Assembly (NCBI GenBank): GCA_026986575.1
Contig: JALSOH010000006.1
Coordinates: forward strand, 62,001-126,000
Reading direction: 5' to 3'
Source: Thermoproteota archaeon
GTDB lineage: Archaea > Korarchaeota > Korarchaeia > Korarchaeales > Korarchaeaceae
Length of the DNA: 64,000 nucleotides
Shown: positions 2,495-63,843 of the stretch, piece after piece
Position numbering within the stretch: position 1 is the stretch's first letter
Layout of the letters: every line of letters begins with the position of its first letter
Translations under genes and position numbers: made by a program
Notes under the pieces: generated by a model
Told to the model about the DNA's origin: nothing
The model's database searches: none
What the model saw: only the letters and a program-made list of their open reading frames with translations

Positions 2495-3094
2495 TTATCG
2501 GTCTCTTCTTCCTCCCTTTGATCTCCTTCTCCTGTACTCCTTCACCAAAGATACCGCTTCTCTGAATTTTGGATGCCCCGAGCTGCCTAGAAGCTCGTAC
2601 GCAACGGACTCCGAGGTCGTTACGTAAATGCCCTCTTGAAGCAGTCTTGCCAGTGTCGCCTCCTTATCCTCGGGAAATGTCGACCCAGTGGCATCACTGA
2701 CCAAGTGTACCTCCAGACCGTGGGCGACAGCGCTAAGTGCGGTCTGGAGTATGCATATATGGGTTTCTATTCCGGTCAACAGGACCTTTTTCCTTCCAAG
2801 GCCGAGCAGCCTCTCTTTAATCCTCCTATCCTTGAACGCATCAAATGAAGCCTTCTCCATTTTCACATCCAGCAGTTCATCTACTTCTCGGACGGTCCTG
2901 CCCAGTTTCTCGGGGGCCTGCTCAGTCCCCACCACAGGCATGCTTAGGAGCTTAGACGTCTTGGCTAGCAAGGTTATGGAGCTTACTATAGAATCAAACT
3001 CCTTGATTACCTTGGAGAAAGGCTCTTGCATGTCTATAACAAGCAGAAAGGTGTTCTTAGGGTCTAACCTCCCGGGTAAATGGCCTCCAGACAT
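2495..3094 (-). CDS. isochorismatase-family cysteine hydrolase
   Basis: A member of the isochorismatase-like fold, which includes nicotinamidases and N-carbamoyl hydrolases. The triad is present: Asp in VIDMQ, Lys in MEKASFDAF and Cys in GIETHICILQTA. The substrate cannot be told from sequence. I chose the ATG at 3094, which starts shortly before the core fold. An in-frame codon at 3133 would add 13 residues and enlarge the overlap with the upstream methyltransferase gene. The stop lies just after the convergent PKD gene. This is the last gene of a four-gene minus-strand cluster. Confidence is high for family and low for substrate. Confidence 0.8.
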   Translation of the reverse strand: MSGGHLPGRLDPKNTFLLVIDMQEPFSKVIKEFDSIVSSITLLAKTSKLLSMPVVGTEQAPEKLGRTVREVDELLDVKMEKASFDAFKDRRIKERLLGLGRKKVLLTGIETHICILQTALSAVAHGLEVHLVSDATGSTFPEDKEATLARLLQEGIYVTTSESVAYELLGSSGHPKFREAVSLVKEYRRRRSKGGRRDR

Positions 3095-59510: not shown

Positions 59511-60031
59511 CCTGATTCAGCGGCAACTGCCCTCCAGATCGCATCTCCGGCATGATGCAGATTCCTCACGGATCTGCCTCTCTCCTTTATCTGGTCCGGC
59601 GGTCTGAGTGCCCTGCCTATGGCTATGGTTGCTCCCAACCTCTCGTCGACCACGACTACCAAGTCTCCCTCGTCGAAGTCATCCATGACCTCCTTGATGC
59701 CCGGTCCCATGACGTGGGCTCCGCTGGCTATCGGTTTAACCGCCCCCAAGTCCACTACCACCCTAGGTAAATCGAGATCGAACTTCTCTACGGCAGTGAG
59801 GAACGGAATGAGGTCATTATCCTCGGTGGGGAGCTCGACGAGCACGGGTTCCCCCTCGTAGTAATAGACTCTGGCCACCTTCCCCCTCCATGGAACCTCG
59901 AGCACTTGGAACGAGATCTTCCTCTTCCTGAAGACGTTACTCATGCCCCTTATCTCCTTGACAGCTCTGTCTATAATGGCCTTACTCTGCTTTACTGTGA
60001 TCGCGTATTTCCTCCCCGGAATTGCCCTCAC
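59507..60031 (-). CDS. archaeal pre-PUA/PUA-domain RNA-binding protein (MCT-1/Tma20-like)
   Basis: A 174-residue protein of COG2016, related to eukaryotic MCT-1/Tma20 that binds tRNA on the small ribosomal subunit during recycling and reinitiation. The N-terminal pre-PUA part is residues 1-85; the PUA domain begins near PRVVVDLGAVKPIASGAHV, with GPGIKEV and VVVVDERLGATIAIGRAL. The start is GTG at 60031. It lies 22 bases downstream of tRNA-Asp on the same strand. Confidence 0.88.
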   Translation of the reverse strand: MRAIPGRKYAITVKQSKAIIDRAVKEIRGMSNVFRKRKISFQVLEVPWRGKVARVYYYEGEPVLVELPTEDNDLIPFLTAVEKFDLDLPRVVVDLGAVKPIASGAHVMGPGIKEVMDDFDEGDLVVVVDERLGATIAIGRALRPPDQIKERGRSVRNLHHAGDAIWRAVAAESG

Positions 60032-60053
60032 CTTTGCGAATATAGTGAAATGG

Positions 60054-60127
60054 CGCCCGGGCCGGGATTTGAACCCGGGTCTGGGGCTCGACAGGCCCCT
60101 ATGCTAACCGGGCTACACCACCCGGGC
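60054..60127 (-). tRNA. tRNA-Asp (anticodon GTC)
   Basis: A 74-base cloverleaf on the minus strand. The acceptor GCCCGGG pairs with CCCGGGC, the anticodon stem GGGGC/GCCCC holds the loop CTGTCGA with anticodon GTC, and the T arm is CCGGG-TTCAAAT-CCCGG. No intron and no encoded CCA. A TATA box (AATATTTATAAT on the minus strand) lies at 60152-60163, about 25-35 bases upstream. Confidence 0.97.
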
Positions 60128-60151
60128 ACCGGAGTAGAGGAGGCAACCATC

Positions 60152-60163
60152 ATTATAAATATT
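60152..60163 (-). promoter_or_regulatory. TATA box for tRNA-Asp
   Basis: AATATTTATAAT on the minus strand sits between the endonuclease IV stop and the tRNA, at the right distance for transcription of the tRNA and possibly of the PUA and CoA-binding genes behind it. Confidence 0.5.
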
Positions 60164-61006
60164 TCACCGTTTCCGCCTCATGCTTTCATAGACCAGCTTC
60201 ATCTTCAAGGCGTCCCTTTCTAACAAGGGGGACTCAGAGATCACCAGCCACCGGACGTCCTTCTCCACCATGAGCTGAGCTAAGGGCTCGAATTCGGGGC
60301 CATAGCCAGAACCCAACTCGTGGTGCATCCTCTCTCCGTAACCCGACTTGGTGGGCTCCACCTCGGTGAAATGCACGACAAGGCCGTCTAATGTGCCCAA
60401 CCTGCCCTCTATCTCATCTAGGATCCTCTCATAGTCTTTCCTACCCCTGATTATGCCTCCATACCTCACGTGTATATGGGCGAAATCCACAGTCGGCACG
60501 ACACTATCAACACTCTCGGCCATGGTGAGCACGTCGTCTAGGGAACCTAGTTGCGAGGGCTTCCCCGTGGTCTCCGGGCCGAGCTCGACTTGGAGTCCTC
60601 TGCCCTTTATCACGCTGTGGAGATGCTTTAGAGCATTTATTGCCATCTTCAGAGCTTCATCTCTTCCGAACTTACCGTAGTACCCTGGATGGAATGTGAT
60701 GTGCTTCGCGCCTATTCTGTGGGCAGCCACGGCCGCGGATATGATTCTCTCAATGCTTGCTTCTCTCTTTTTGGGATCCTCAGATGCCAAGTTTATGGCA
60801 TAGGGTGCGTGAAGTGAGAGCATTACATCGTTTTCCTCCGCCTGCTCCCTTATCCATCTGAGCAGCTCCTTGCTCTTCGGAATAGATCTGACTGCTTGGT
60901 ACTCCATCCCATCCAGCCCTACGCTCCTCAGATATGTGAATGCCTCTTCCTTAGGGGCATCTAATGGGTAACCAGCTAGCCCAAATCGGGTTCTATCGAT
61001 GTCCAT
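60164..61006 (-). CDS. endonuclease IV-like AP endonuclease
   Basis: A 280-residue TIM-barrel nuclease that cuts DNA at abasic sites. Zinc ligands occur in LSLHAPYAIN, ITFHPGYYG, LGPETTGKPSQLG, PTVDFAHIHV, VVHFTEVEP and MHHELGSGYG, with a late Glu in VISESP, all in the order of endonuclease IV. The ATG at 61006 follows GGAAGGG. Confidence 0.88.
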   Translation of the reverse strand: MDIDRTRFGLAGYPLDAPKEEAFTYLRSVGLDGMEYQAVRSIPKSKELLRWIREQAEENDVMLSLHAPYAINLASEDPKKREASIERIISAAVAAHRIGAKHITFHPGYYGKFGRDEALKMAINALKHLHSVIKGRGLQVELGPETTGKPSQLGSLDDVLTMAESVDSVVPTVDFAHIHVRYGGIIRGRKDYERILDEIEGRLGTLDGLVVHFTEVEPTKSGYGERMHHELGSGYGPEFEPLAQLMVEKDVRWLVISESPLLERDALKMKLVYESMRRKR

Positions 61007-61086
61007 CCCTTCCTCGATCTCCCGTACAAGACATTATCCTTACACCCTTCGCCTCCTTTTACTGTTAAAAGTGTTTGATATAGGGT

Positions 61087-61108
61087 GGAAGGGTTATATA
61101 TCCCTTCC
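61087..61108. promoter_or_regulatory. dyad straddling a TATA box, candidate operator
   Basis: Perfect 7-base arms GGAAGGG (61087-61093) and CCCTTCC (61102-61108) flank TTATATAT. The central TATATA is the best TATA box for the plus-strand RNA that begins near 61122. A protein bound here would block TBP, so this looks like a repressor site. The divergent endonuclease IV gene lies on the other side with its own TATA-like site near 61060-61068. Confidence 0.55.
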
Positions 61109-61121
61109 GGTCCTATATAGT

Positions 61122-61262
61122 GGGGTCGCCCGGCCCTTGGCGGGCTTAGCCCGATGTGCGGGCTATGGCCTACCACCGAAGCGGAAGGGGCCCTAAATTG
61201 GCCCCGATCTCGGGCGTCCTCAGGACGCCTCCCTCCGGACACCGTGCCGGGCGACTCCCCGC
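61122..61262 (+). ncRNA. candidate structured RNA or structured mRNA leader
   Basis: A long-range helix joins 61125-61134 with 61246-61255 (10 pairs), extended by 61122-61124 with 61257-61259 across a bulged U. It encloses three perfect hairpins: 61147-61153 with 61159-61165 (loop AUGUG); 61187-61192 with 61200-61205 (7-base loop); and 61213-61219 with 61223-61229 (loop UCA). The predicted start, 25 bases after the TATA box, coincides with the helix base. No T-run follows; the radical SAM start lies 24 bases beyond, after GGTGAT. It could be a leader riboswitch or a separate RNA. I found no RNase P, SRP, 5S or known riboswitch consensus. Confidence 0.6.
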
Positions 61263-61286
61263 ACCTCCACCTCCTTCGGTGATAGC

Positions 61287-62354
61287 ATGGCATGGTTCCT
61301 GAGGCCTGATGCTTTCTCGGCCTTCGAGAACGAGGAGATAAGGGACACGATACCAAGGTACATAAGGGTAGTGAGGAGGGAGGAACCTCCCCTCTTCAGA
61401 CTGACTCAGAGGATCTTCTTGGATGTGGGCGACGATCCTTGGGCCACTCACGACGAGGGACTCCAGATACTCTCTAAATGCGTGGTAGAGGGAGAATGCC
61501 CTAAGGAGAAGAGGGATGGGAGGACCTCCTTGCTCGAACTCAAGGCACTCCTGGCCAAGGATATGCTCCGAGGGTGCAGGCTGTGCGAATGGAAGTGCGG
61601 CGTGAACAGACTTGAGGGGGAGATAGGCGCCTGCAGAGTCCGAGACTCACGGGTGGCGAGCGCCTTCATTCACATGGGAGAGGAAGCCCCTATAACTCCC
61701 TCTGGAACGATATTCTTCGCCGGATGCAACTTCAGGTGCGTATTCTGTCAGAACTGGGATATATCTCAATTCCCCGAATCGGGCAGGCGGGTGGACGAAC
61801 GGGGACTTGCGTCTATTATGGATGAGCTGAGGATGCAGGGCGCCAGGAACATTAATCTGGTCGGAGGGGAGCCTACACCCAACCTCCCCCTGATAATCTC
61901 GTCCCTCAACCTCGTCAGGGAGGACTTCCCCGTTGTGTGGAATTCCAACATGTACATGAGCGAAGAGGCTATGAAGCTCCTGCTCGGTTTGGTGGATCTT
62001 TGGCTGCCTGACTTCAAGTATTGGAACGATGAGTGTGCTAGGAAGTACAGCGGGATTCTTAGTTACAGGGAGACCGTAACTAGGAACTTGAAAATGGCGT
62101 ACGACTATCCGCCCGGGGAGATGGTGCTGAGGCACTTGGTCCTCCCTGGGCACTTGAACTGCTGCACGGAACCCATCCTCAAGTGGATCTCCGATAATAT
62201 CCCCGACATCTTGGTGAACATAATGGACCAATACAGGCCCGAGTACAGAGCCAGCAAGTTCGACGAGATAAACAGAAGGGTGACCACCGAGGAGATGATG
62301 AGGGCCTACAGGCTAGCTGATGAGCTGGGCCTGAGATGGAGGTCGGTCAGCTGA
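61287..62354 (+). CDS. radical SAM protein, PflX/COG1313-like
   Basis: A 355-residue radical SAM protein related to pyruvate-formate-lyase activases. An N-terminal cysteine set CRLCEWKCGVNRLEGEIGAC precedes the cluster motif CNFRCVFC and the SAM-binding VGGEPTPNLP. Later PDFKYWNDECARKYS and HLVLPGHLNCCTEP are typical of COG1313. The substrate is unknown. The ATG at 61287 follows GGTGAT and comes directly after the structured RNA. It overlaps the UPF0200 gene by 8 bases. Confidence 0.88.
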   Translation: MAWFLRPDAFSAFENEEIRDTIPRYIRVVRREEPPLFRLTQRIFLDVGDDPWATHDEGLQILSKCVVEGECPKEKRDGRTSLLELKALLAKDMLRGCRLCEWKCGVNRLEGEIGACRVRDSRVASAFIHMGEEAPITPSGTIFFAGCNFRCVFCQNWDISQFPESGRRVDERGLASIMDELRMQGARNINLVGGEPTPNLPLIISSLNLVREDFPVVWNSNMYMSEEAMKLLLGLVDLWLPDFKYWNDECARKYSGILSYRETVTRNLKMAYDYPPGEMVLRHLVLPGHLNCCTEPILKWISDNIPDILVNIMDQYRPEYRASKFDEINRRVTTEEMMRAYRLADELGLRWRSVS

Positions 62355-62916
62355 TCGTGAGCAGGAGCCTGACGATTTTCCACCTCAAGTCCTCTAGACT
62401 CCCCTCATTCAGGATGAAGTAGTCTGCTGCCGCGATGGCGTCCCCCAGATGGAAGGCCCTTATCTCCTCCCTATCCTCACCCAAGAATTCCTCATAACTT
62501 TCCTTGTCGAAACCCATCCTCTTCCTCTTTAGTTGCCTCAGGAATCTCAGGTTCTTGGATGCCAGTATTGCTATCGTCACCACCTTGTCACCGAATCTAC
62601 GTTCGAACTCTTCTATCTCCTCCAAATTCCTTATACCATTTACTACAAATCCCTTCCCTCCCTCCGTTTCCTCTATCCTCTTTATCACCAACTTAGCGAT
62701 TGCTGAAGGCCCCATCTTACCTCTAAGCTCAATCCCCACCTTTCTCATGTTCTCCCTAGTTACGGAGAGCCCTCTTTTCCTAAGCTCGTCCAGCAATTCA
62801 TCGCTCATCCTCAAAACCTTGAATCCCAGCTCCTCCTCGATTGCCTTGGCTGCCGCGTCTTTCCCGCTTCCGGGAAGTCCCACTATCAGGACTATTCTCC
62901 CACCGATCTTTCCCAT
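62347..62916 (-). CDS. UPF0200 nucleotide kinase-like P-loop protein
   Basis: A 189-residue P-loop NTPase of the dephospho-CoA kinase/adenylate kinase type. Walker A is VGLPGSGKDAAAKA; FVVNGIRNLEEIEEF and KRKRMGFDKESYEEF are typical of the archaeal UPF0200 family. The substrate is not established from sequence. The ATG at 62916 lies about 25 bases from CTTTATATGG (minus strand, 62938-62947), so it is probably leaderless. Confidence 0.85.
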   Translation of the reverse strand: MGKIGGRIVLIVGLPGSGKDAAAKAIEEELGFKVLRMSDELLDELRKRGLSVTRENMRKVGIELRGKMGPSAIAKLVIKRIEETEGGKGFVVNGIRNLEEIEEFERRFGDKVVTIAILASKNLRFLRQLKRKRMGFDKESYEEFLGEDREEIRAFHLGDAIAAADYFILNEGSLEDLRWKIVRLLLTIS

Positions 62917-62985
62917 CTAGGGGCGAGACCTTGGCATCCATATAAAGATCAGCCCATACAGTGTCAGGGTCCATCCGGGGAGAGT

Positions 62986-62995
62986 GGTTTTAAAG
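62986..62995 (+). promoter_or_regulatory. TATA box of cas6
   Basis: GGTTTTAAAG lies 33-42 bases before the ATG at 63028, giving a leader of about 8-10 bases. Confidence 0.45.
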
Positions 62996-63027
62996 AAGAG
63001 CATTTACGGGAAACGGGGATCTAAAAA

Positions 63028-63843
63028 ATGATCTCAGTGATAGAGATAGAGGCCGTAAGTCAGGGTGAGGGTATAGTTCCCTTCACGGGTCCCCCTCTGA
63101 GGCGTGCCCTGTTTAAAGCTCTATCATCTCAGAACCCTCTGCTGGCAAAGGCTTTAGAGATGTCTTCCAACAAGATATTCATTGAAGCCTTCCTCAGGGA
63201 CAGGAGGCAGTTACCGTGCGGCTTTCAAGATGATCTCGTGTATTCGGGATCTGAATATAGGGGATCGGTCATTATATTCGATGATAGGACTCTCGCAGAA
63301 GCTGTGAAGGGGTGGGTTTACAAGAAACCCACCATAAAGATAAGGGATGTGCCATTTAAGGTGGTGGGATACTCTTATCAGGAGATCGAGATAGAGGACT
63401 TCATACAGGATCAGCCTTGCAAGAACTTCAGGATAAGGTTCCTCACTCCCACATGCTTTAGGAGGACATCGACCCCCTATTGCTACTTATATCCGAACTC
63501 CAAGATGGTGGTCTCATCGGCATCCGCGGTCTGGAATGCGCTGTCGCCTAAGAAAGGGCCAGAGACCAGGATAATGTCCATGTGGGCCGATTTGAGTGTC
63601 GTAGAGACCGGATATGAGTTGTGCACAACGAAACCTGTCGAGATAAGTGAGGGCAGGACGTTAGTGGGCTTCATGGGCTGGGTCAATTACAAGGTGGTGG
63701 ATCATCCCGAATGGCACTCCGGCTCCCATGAGGAGATGGCCACATGGCTCAACACCTACCTGAGATTCGCGGAATTGGTGGGAGTCGGATACATGAGAAA
63801 TGCGGGATTCGGTAAGATAAGGTTCGAAGTGAAGAGGAGGTAG
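63028..63843 (+). CDS. cas6: Cas6-family CRISPR RNA endonuclease
   Basis: A 271-residue RAMP-fold protein that processes CRISPR precursor RNA. The N-terminal half has PLRRALFKALSSQNP with a probable early helix; the C-terminal glycine-rich loop VGVGYMRNAGFGKIRFEV is the Cas6 signature. FLTPTCFRRT is the usual C-terminal-domain start. No array or other cas gene lies to its left; the rest of the system, if any, must be beyond the window. The catalytic histidine cannot be picked with certainty (several are possible). Confidence 0.8.
   Translation: MISVIEIEAVSQGEGIVPFTGPPLRRALFKALSSQNPLLAKALEMSSNKIFIEAFLRDRRQLPCGFQDDLVYSGSEYRGSVIIFDDRTLAEAVKGWVYKKPTIKIRDVPFKVVGYSYQEIEIEDFIQDQPCKNFRIRFLTPTCFRRTSTPYCYLYPNSKMVVSSASAVWNALSPKKGPETRIMSMWADLSVVETGYELCTTKPVEISEGRTLVGFMGWVNYKVVDHPEWHSGSHEEMATWLNTYLRFAELVGVGYMRNAGFGKIRFEVKRR

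Follow-up and report, generated by a model that had tools for sequence, protein, structure and literature searches.

A conserved structured RNA ahead of a radical SAM gene in Korarchaeaceae, a candidate for a new archaeal RNA class

The closest precedent for the RNA described here is a group of 5'UTR-derived ncRNAs of P. abyssi, comprising sRk28, sRk33 (= SscA), sRkB and sRk61 (PMC3124441). In the passages of that paper considered here, a covarying basal P1 stem is described for sRk33, sRkB is shown to mature from longer transcripts, as is proposed for the rest of the group, and the RNA genes are more GC-rich than their surroundings (PMC3124441). The riboswitch classes reported in archaea, according to excerpts of two papers, are crcB and TPP (PMC2864571, PMC3124441). 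We analysed a stretch of 64,000 nucleotides from a Korarchaeaceae genome (assembly GCA_026986575.1, contig JALSOH010000006.1, positions 62,001 to 126,000; hereafter the window) and its counterparts in relatives. As far as the excerpts go, the Korarchaeal RNA resembles the P. abyssi ncRNAs in being a structured leader RNA of a hyperthermophilic archaeon, but lineage, gene and fold are different, and the Korarchaeal RNA is predicted from sequence. With the crcB and TPP riboswitches, as these excerpts present them, it shares the 5' leader position and a compact multi-helix fold; unlike them, it has no Rfam match, shows no base-level pocket common to several genera, and is kept without its gene in one genome (G002). 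Titles, abstract beginnings and some passages of the open-licence PMC literature contained no description of this RNA, and 'COG1313' gave no paper there. A lineage-specific, covarying RNA that is fixed ahead of a radical SAM enzyme unnamed in NCBIfam, and that was retained after loss of the enzyme in one species, makes a tangible candidate for a new class of archaeal RNA, however the question of cis or trans action falls.

The original prediction, made from the window sequence, proposed an RNA whose 13-base closing helix (P1) surrounds three hairpins, with the start of a radical SAM gene 24 bases past helix closure. As shown in Table 1, these elements are present as described, and the ATG lies 24 bases past the RNA end. 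No NCBIfam model exceeded its cut-off on the radical SAM gene. The segment 61112-61286 folded at -90.9 kcal/mol (z -3.98), and none of 200 shuffles was that low. The MFE fold differs from the contiguous P1 in that two bases are bulged and 61120-61125 are paired further out. The possible small hairpin P2c was also present in single-sequence folds of some relatives, e.g. L014, L015, L021 and L134.

Table 1. Features of the RNA locus and of the flanking genes, in window coordinates
Feature	Position	Strand	Basis or remark
Upstream dyad arm GGAAGGG	61087-61093		
TATA box TTATATAT	61094-61101	+	Sequence; purine-rich BRE-like stretch 5' of box
Downstream dyad arm CCCTTCC	61102-61108		
Whole dyad around TATA box, perfect	61087-61108		Probably incidental; 7-base arms in 5/22 promoters only
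Structured RNA, 143 bases	61120-61262	+	Predicted from fold, R1 match, held-out relatives and covariation
P1 closing helix	61122-61134 with 61246-61258	+	13 contiguous pairs, one of them G.U
P2 hairpin UAGCCCG/CGGGCUA	61147-61153/61159-61165	+	98.9% of cells paired in genus
P2c, possible small hairpin CCAC CGAA GCGG	61173-61184	+	One mismatch in window copy; outside scored consensus
P3 hairpin, 7-base loop CUAAAUU	61187-61192/61200-61205	+	
P4 hairpin	61213-61219/61223-61229	+	100% of cells paired
Radical SAM enzyme gene	61287-62354	+	Pfam PF04055; start ATG at 61287
Divergent endonuclease IV-like / xylose isomerase-like TIM barrel gene	60164-61006	-	PF01261; neighbour in relatives too
Kinase-like P-loop gene	62347-62916	-	AAA_17 in Pfam
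Cas6 gene	63028-63843	+	Two genes downstream

The centre of the TATA box lies 22-25 bases before the first bases of the RNA. Archaeal TATA boxes are placed about 27 bases before the transcript start in a published account (PMC5316973), which would put the start of this RNA no more than a few bases from P1; this spacing supports the earlier proposal that the RNA begins near where the box would place transcription. In 21 of 22 family members the best TATA-like 8-mer began 30-35 bases upstream of the P1 core, and in L139 it began 42 bases upstream, in a scan that always returns some best match. At least six of the eight positions matched in 17/22 (31-35 bases before the P1 core), and five of eight in L018, L136, L137, L138 and L139. 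The dyad does bracket the TATA box as had been described, and a regulator bound to it had been suggested to compete with TBP. However, its 7-base arms are kept in so few promoters (Table 1), all from relatives with a radical SAM protein about 89% identical or more, that we rejected it as a conserved operator, and competition with TBP through it is unsupported. Perfect dyads of two 7-base arms separated by 4-16 bases have 94 start positions in the window, and are thus nothing rare.

A DNA search was made in 101 genomes (the own genome and 100 relatives). Strong matches (E <=6.1e-7) were obtained in 14 of the 15 other genus genomes; some match at E up to 1 was seen in 61/101 genomes, and those outside the strong genus ones were judged to be chance. 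Twelve sequences, with L015, L021 and L022 left out, were used to construct a covariance model, R1, and it found these three at E values of 2.5e-25, 6e-22 and 5.5e-11, respectively. The window copy, itself part of the model, scored 160.9 bits. Over 29 phylum genomes, R1 detected one strong copy in 15 of the 16 genus genomes, the only one without a match being G013, which is 70% complete. The 13 phylum genomes outside the genus gave two weak R1 matches (E 0.08-0.10), neither of them at the radical SAM locus. At the RNA's own place, weak matches were found in L047 (0.006), L050 (0.02, partial) and L048 (0.27, partial), and none in L049. One P3-based pattern was not matched exactly in any viral contig. 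In relatives, a match of 20 bases some 2.8-3 kb downstream falls within a long open frame; it is 18/20 in the own genome, and was dismissed as chance. The GC content of the RNA was higher than that of its flanks in all 22 sequences, and length differences of the RNA among relatives were not multiples of three, which bears on the idea of a leader peptide.

We then examined covariation. In the 15-sequence alignment 98.7% of cells were paired; this alignment had been fitted to the model and therefore leans towards it, and every slid version of it scored far lower. Ten pairs carried changes on both sides, against a shuffled mean of 2.6, and the cells with such changes numbered 19, against 3.2 (0/500 shuffles as high in either case). 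When L022, the most divergent row, was removed, 5 pairs and 11 cells with both-side changes were left. In P1, 6 of the 13 pairs had changed on both sides, and in P3 one pair had done so within the genus. P4 has three such pairs, but they derive from the single sequence L022, and P2, having no both-side change at all, is without covariation support. A 12-sequence MAFFT alignment gave 3 both-side pairs against 1.3 in shuffles (15/500 as high) and 6 both-side cells against 1.7 (0/500), whilst 'further pair types' did not rise above the shuffles there (162/500).

Beyond the genus, the radical SAM gene was present in 24 of the 29 phylum genomes at E 1e-40, and P1 together with a P3-like hairpin occurred upstream of it in 7/7 gene-bearing genomes of other genera in the family. 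Cross-genus MAFFT alignments did not hold P1 in register, and the consensus fold from one of them kept P3 only; hence anchored pairs were counted by script, and no family-wide covariance model was made. Over 22 sequences, 172 of 176 P1 cells (8 hand-anchored pairs) and 131 of 132 P3 cells were paired, and 0/1000 shuffles reached either value. The P1 ends had been anchored by hand and the P3 stems taken by best score, both with pairing in view, and since this choice leans to pairing, the several pair types per position outweigh the percentages. In this count the P3 of L139 stood in a shifted register, and L134 and L142 had one P1 mismatch each. The interior of P1 is variable: P2-, P2c- and P4-like hairpins are clear in L134 and L138, as are P3 and P4 in L136 and L137, whereas L135 and L139 have a different arrangement inside P1 in their best folds. 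Many unpaired bases are invariant in the genus; by eye, most of them are not conserved in other genera, with the exception of the P3 loop. This loop ends in UU in 20/22 sequences (UC in L138, and an 8-base loop ending UUA in L135), as picked by a script that favoured loops of this kind. When the 300 bases upstream were searched for long GC-rich helices, P1 was recovered at 10 of 11 Korarchaeal loci, where L040 failed through one mismatch and the L049 helix was equalled by 1/15 shuffles. A helix scoring at least 25 was found in 2 of 66 other radical SAM leaders, three further loci of the 69 (L063, L071, L101) having too little upstream sequence for this search. R1 gave no match up to E 1 over these 69 loci, and outside the family inspection of the G025, G026 and G028 leaders by eye (for G028 with a projected start) revealed no such RNA. 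Judged by these comparisons, 61120-61262 is a real, conserved RNA family, which appears to be older than the genus and to be conserved in one archaeal family, the heat-loving Korarchaeaceae. The expectation that its structure would be conserved upstream of the radical SAM gene in relatives was supported by the held-out R1 matches, the recurrence of P1 and P3, and the covariation.

The RNA could in principle be a housekeeping or guide RNA (RNase P, SRP, 5S, C/D or H/ACA) too diverged for Rfam, and its GC-richness, own promoter, single strong copy and helix-sealed ends would suit such an origin. RNase P, SRP and 5S RNA in this genome are likewise single structured RNAs, but all three genes were found at other loci, over the Rfam cut-offs. 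Moreover, in an Rfam search of 60000-63000 up to E 10 all matches to this RNA were far below gathering scores, and the loci of 7 relatives, searched up to E 1, gave no match to it, just tRNA and a tRNA-overlapping echo. A known RNA family was rejected on these grounds, in line with the original prediction that this is not a known housekeeping RNA. A C box (one mismatch allowed) and a D box occurred together in 1/22 sequences and an ACA within the last 20 bases in 0/22, so that neither a C/D nor an H/ACA guide RNA is supported. The diverged housekeeping or guide RNA is therefore already largely refuted and, in our estimate, very unlikely. An element acting at the DNA level, such as a regulator-binding dyad or a DNA hairpin with no RNA role, could also account for the inverted repeats and for the dyad over the TATA box. 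It is compatible, too, with the folding of the opposite strand of 61112-61286, which is about equal (-95, z -3.72), and on account of which fold energy alone cannot choose the strand. The 15-sequence alignment, however, contains 19 G.U cells against 2 A.C cells, as is expected of an RNA from the + strand and pointing to one, and the dyad is not conserved; we regard a pure DNA element as scarcely credible.

The order of endonuclease IV-like gene, RNA, radical SAM gene, kinase-like gene and Cas6 gene is common to the family members examined with enough flank, and adjacency alone is for that reason weak evidence of function. At each of the 21 loci where the gene start is intact, the RNA preceded the radical SAM gene and no other gene was seen in between. 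The distance from the end of the P1 core to the projected start was 20-34 bases in 17 of them and 77-111 in L136-L138, and in L139 the RNA overlaps the projected start. Two natural experiments bear on the relation of RNA and gene, and they disagree. In G001 (L151, L153, L159), RNA and radical SAM gene were found together on contig C20 among other genes, a new place, whereas contig C16 carries Cas6 and, separated by <20 bases, the endonuclease-like and kinase-like genes; the joint position on C20 shows RNA and radical SAM gene to be coupled. In G002, by contrast, the RNA outlives the gene: the radical SAM gene is a pseudogene with stops in all three frames, of which only fragments match. Compared with its sister L015, the G002 RNA aligned without gaps at 122/139 identity, and the promoter had 32/35 identities and 2 gap columns, against 523/752 with 324 gap columns for the radical SAM gene, 323/445 with 401 gap columns for the upstream endonuclease-like gene, 44/81 for the spacer beyond the promoter and about 76% for the further flanks. 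Both genes flanking the RNA in G002 (L021 1165-1410 and 1690-2460) are decaying through large deletions and stops, and the further neighbours are intact.

All 47 of 47 pairs were kept in the G002 RNA, with P 0.00045 under a null built on the fold predicted for just one sequence of the pair, and P 0.0025-0.0052 for 12 changes placed on the G002 branch. Of the 17 differences between the RNAs of G014 and G002, 12 were assigned to the G002 branch and none to the other, with 5 ambiguous, against 28:22, with 30 ambiguous, in two intact neighbour proteins; constraint may thus already be relaxed after gene loss. In the G002 RNA the structure is still maintained while sequence change has accelerated, and incipient decay is conceivable. 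Survival of the RNA beyond its gene is a single case, G002, as the 29 phylum genomes contained no second genome with the RNA but without the radical SAM gene. In G013 and G021 (70-71% complete) neither RNA nor radical SAM gene was found. The endonuclease-like and kinase-like genes were not found in G013 either, and the G021 contig ends just past the kinase-like gene, at the point where a radical SAM gene would be expected next, so that the missing match says little.

Our best reading, to which we give an even chance, is that the folded 5' portion of the transcript does more than control the radical SAM gene. A dedicated TATA promoter would start transcription at the foot of P1, the first ~143 bases would fold into a multibranch RNA closed by P1, and transcription would read on into the radical SAM gene 24 bases further. 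The structured domain would most likely persist as a stable, probably processed RNA acting beyond cis control, for example as a ribonucleoprotein core recognised via P3 and its loop, and the radical SAM gene would depend on the promoter of the RNA, so that the two stay together. Of this picture, the sequences themselves establish the structure and its covariation, the strand, the promoter position, the linkage and the single strong copy in genomes of the genus; transcript ends, read-through, processing, stability, action in trans and binding through P3 are inferred. As in the 5'UTR-derived ncRNAs of archaea, we found a structured, covarying RNA in a leader with a promoter of its own, the promoter being assigned by sequence and its TATA match being weak in 5/22. 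That the RNA forms a new stable class specific to Korarchaeaceae, sharing its promoter with the radical SAM gene and acting in trans, is a more tentative proposal, which we put somewhat below an even chance. The radical SAM protein possibly modifies the RNA or assembles with it, which would explain their adjacency, while the RNA itself would have a role that outlives the enzyme.

The main rival is a leader acting purely in cis, in which the fold recognises a metabolite or a protein, possibly the radical SAM protein, and regulates how the mRNA is translated or degraded; we consider it a serious contender, while leaning against it. Such a leader would account for the upstream position at every locus with an intact gene start, the spacing of 20-34 bases at 17 of them, the joint position in G001 and the faster evolution of the RNA in G002 after gene loss. 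It is also in keeping with the lack of a long T-run, by eye, in the linkers between RNA and gene, and with the many unpaired bases invariant in the genus. Yet these bases are mostly not retained in other genera except for the P3 loop, and a ligand pocket of unpaired bases conserved across the family was not seen by eye, again the P3 loop apart. In G002, moreover, RNA and promoter are kept while gene and linker erode, and P1 seems so stable that it would not switch easily. A hairpin of 7 bp that covers the Shine-Dalgarno sequence in L016, L017, L018 and L020, and in L019 by its fold, would fit control of translation, but hairpins of at least 4 bp over this sequence are ordinary. Among 49 control genes in the window, of which the radical SAM gene itself may be one, 21 had a Shine-Dalgarno-like motif, with a hairpin of at least 4 bp over it in 16 and of at least 6 bp in 3. 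Sequestering of the Shine-Dalgarno sequence as a family-wide expression platform is therefore unsupported, the strong hairpin occurring in one clade only. The original prediction had offered either a riboswitch-like leader or a stable RNA processed from the mRNA. Of these the stable RNA is now favoured, though not proven, and the riboswitch-like leader is weakened, because unpaired bases are mostly not kept across genera and the RNA outlives the gene in G002.

Two further observations concern the coding regions around the RNA. The radical SAM N-terminal frame of L139 (G019, ~2540-2565, minus strand) runs back into the 3' strand of P1, an overlap that may be avoided if a later ATG is the true start. 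In the window, the kinase-like gene, for which the PRK08356 and adenylate kinase models remained below cut-off, overlaps the end of the radical SAM gene, and the same place is kept in relatives.
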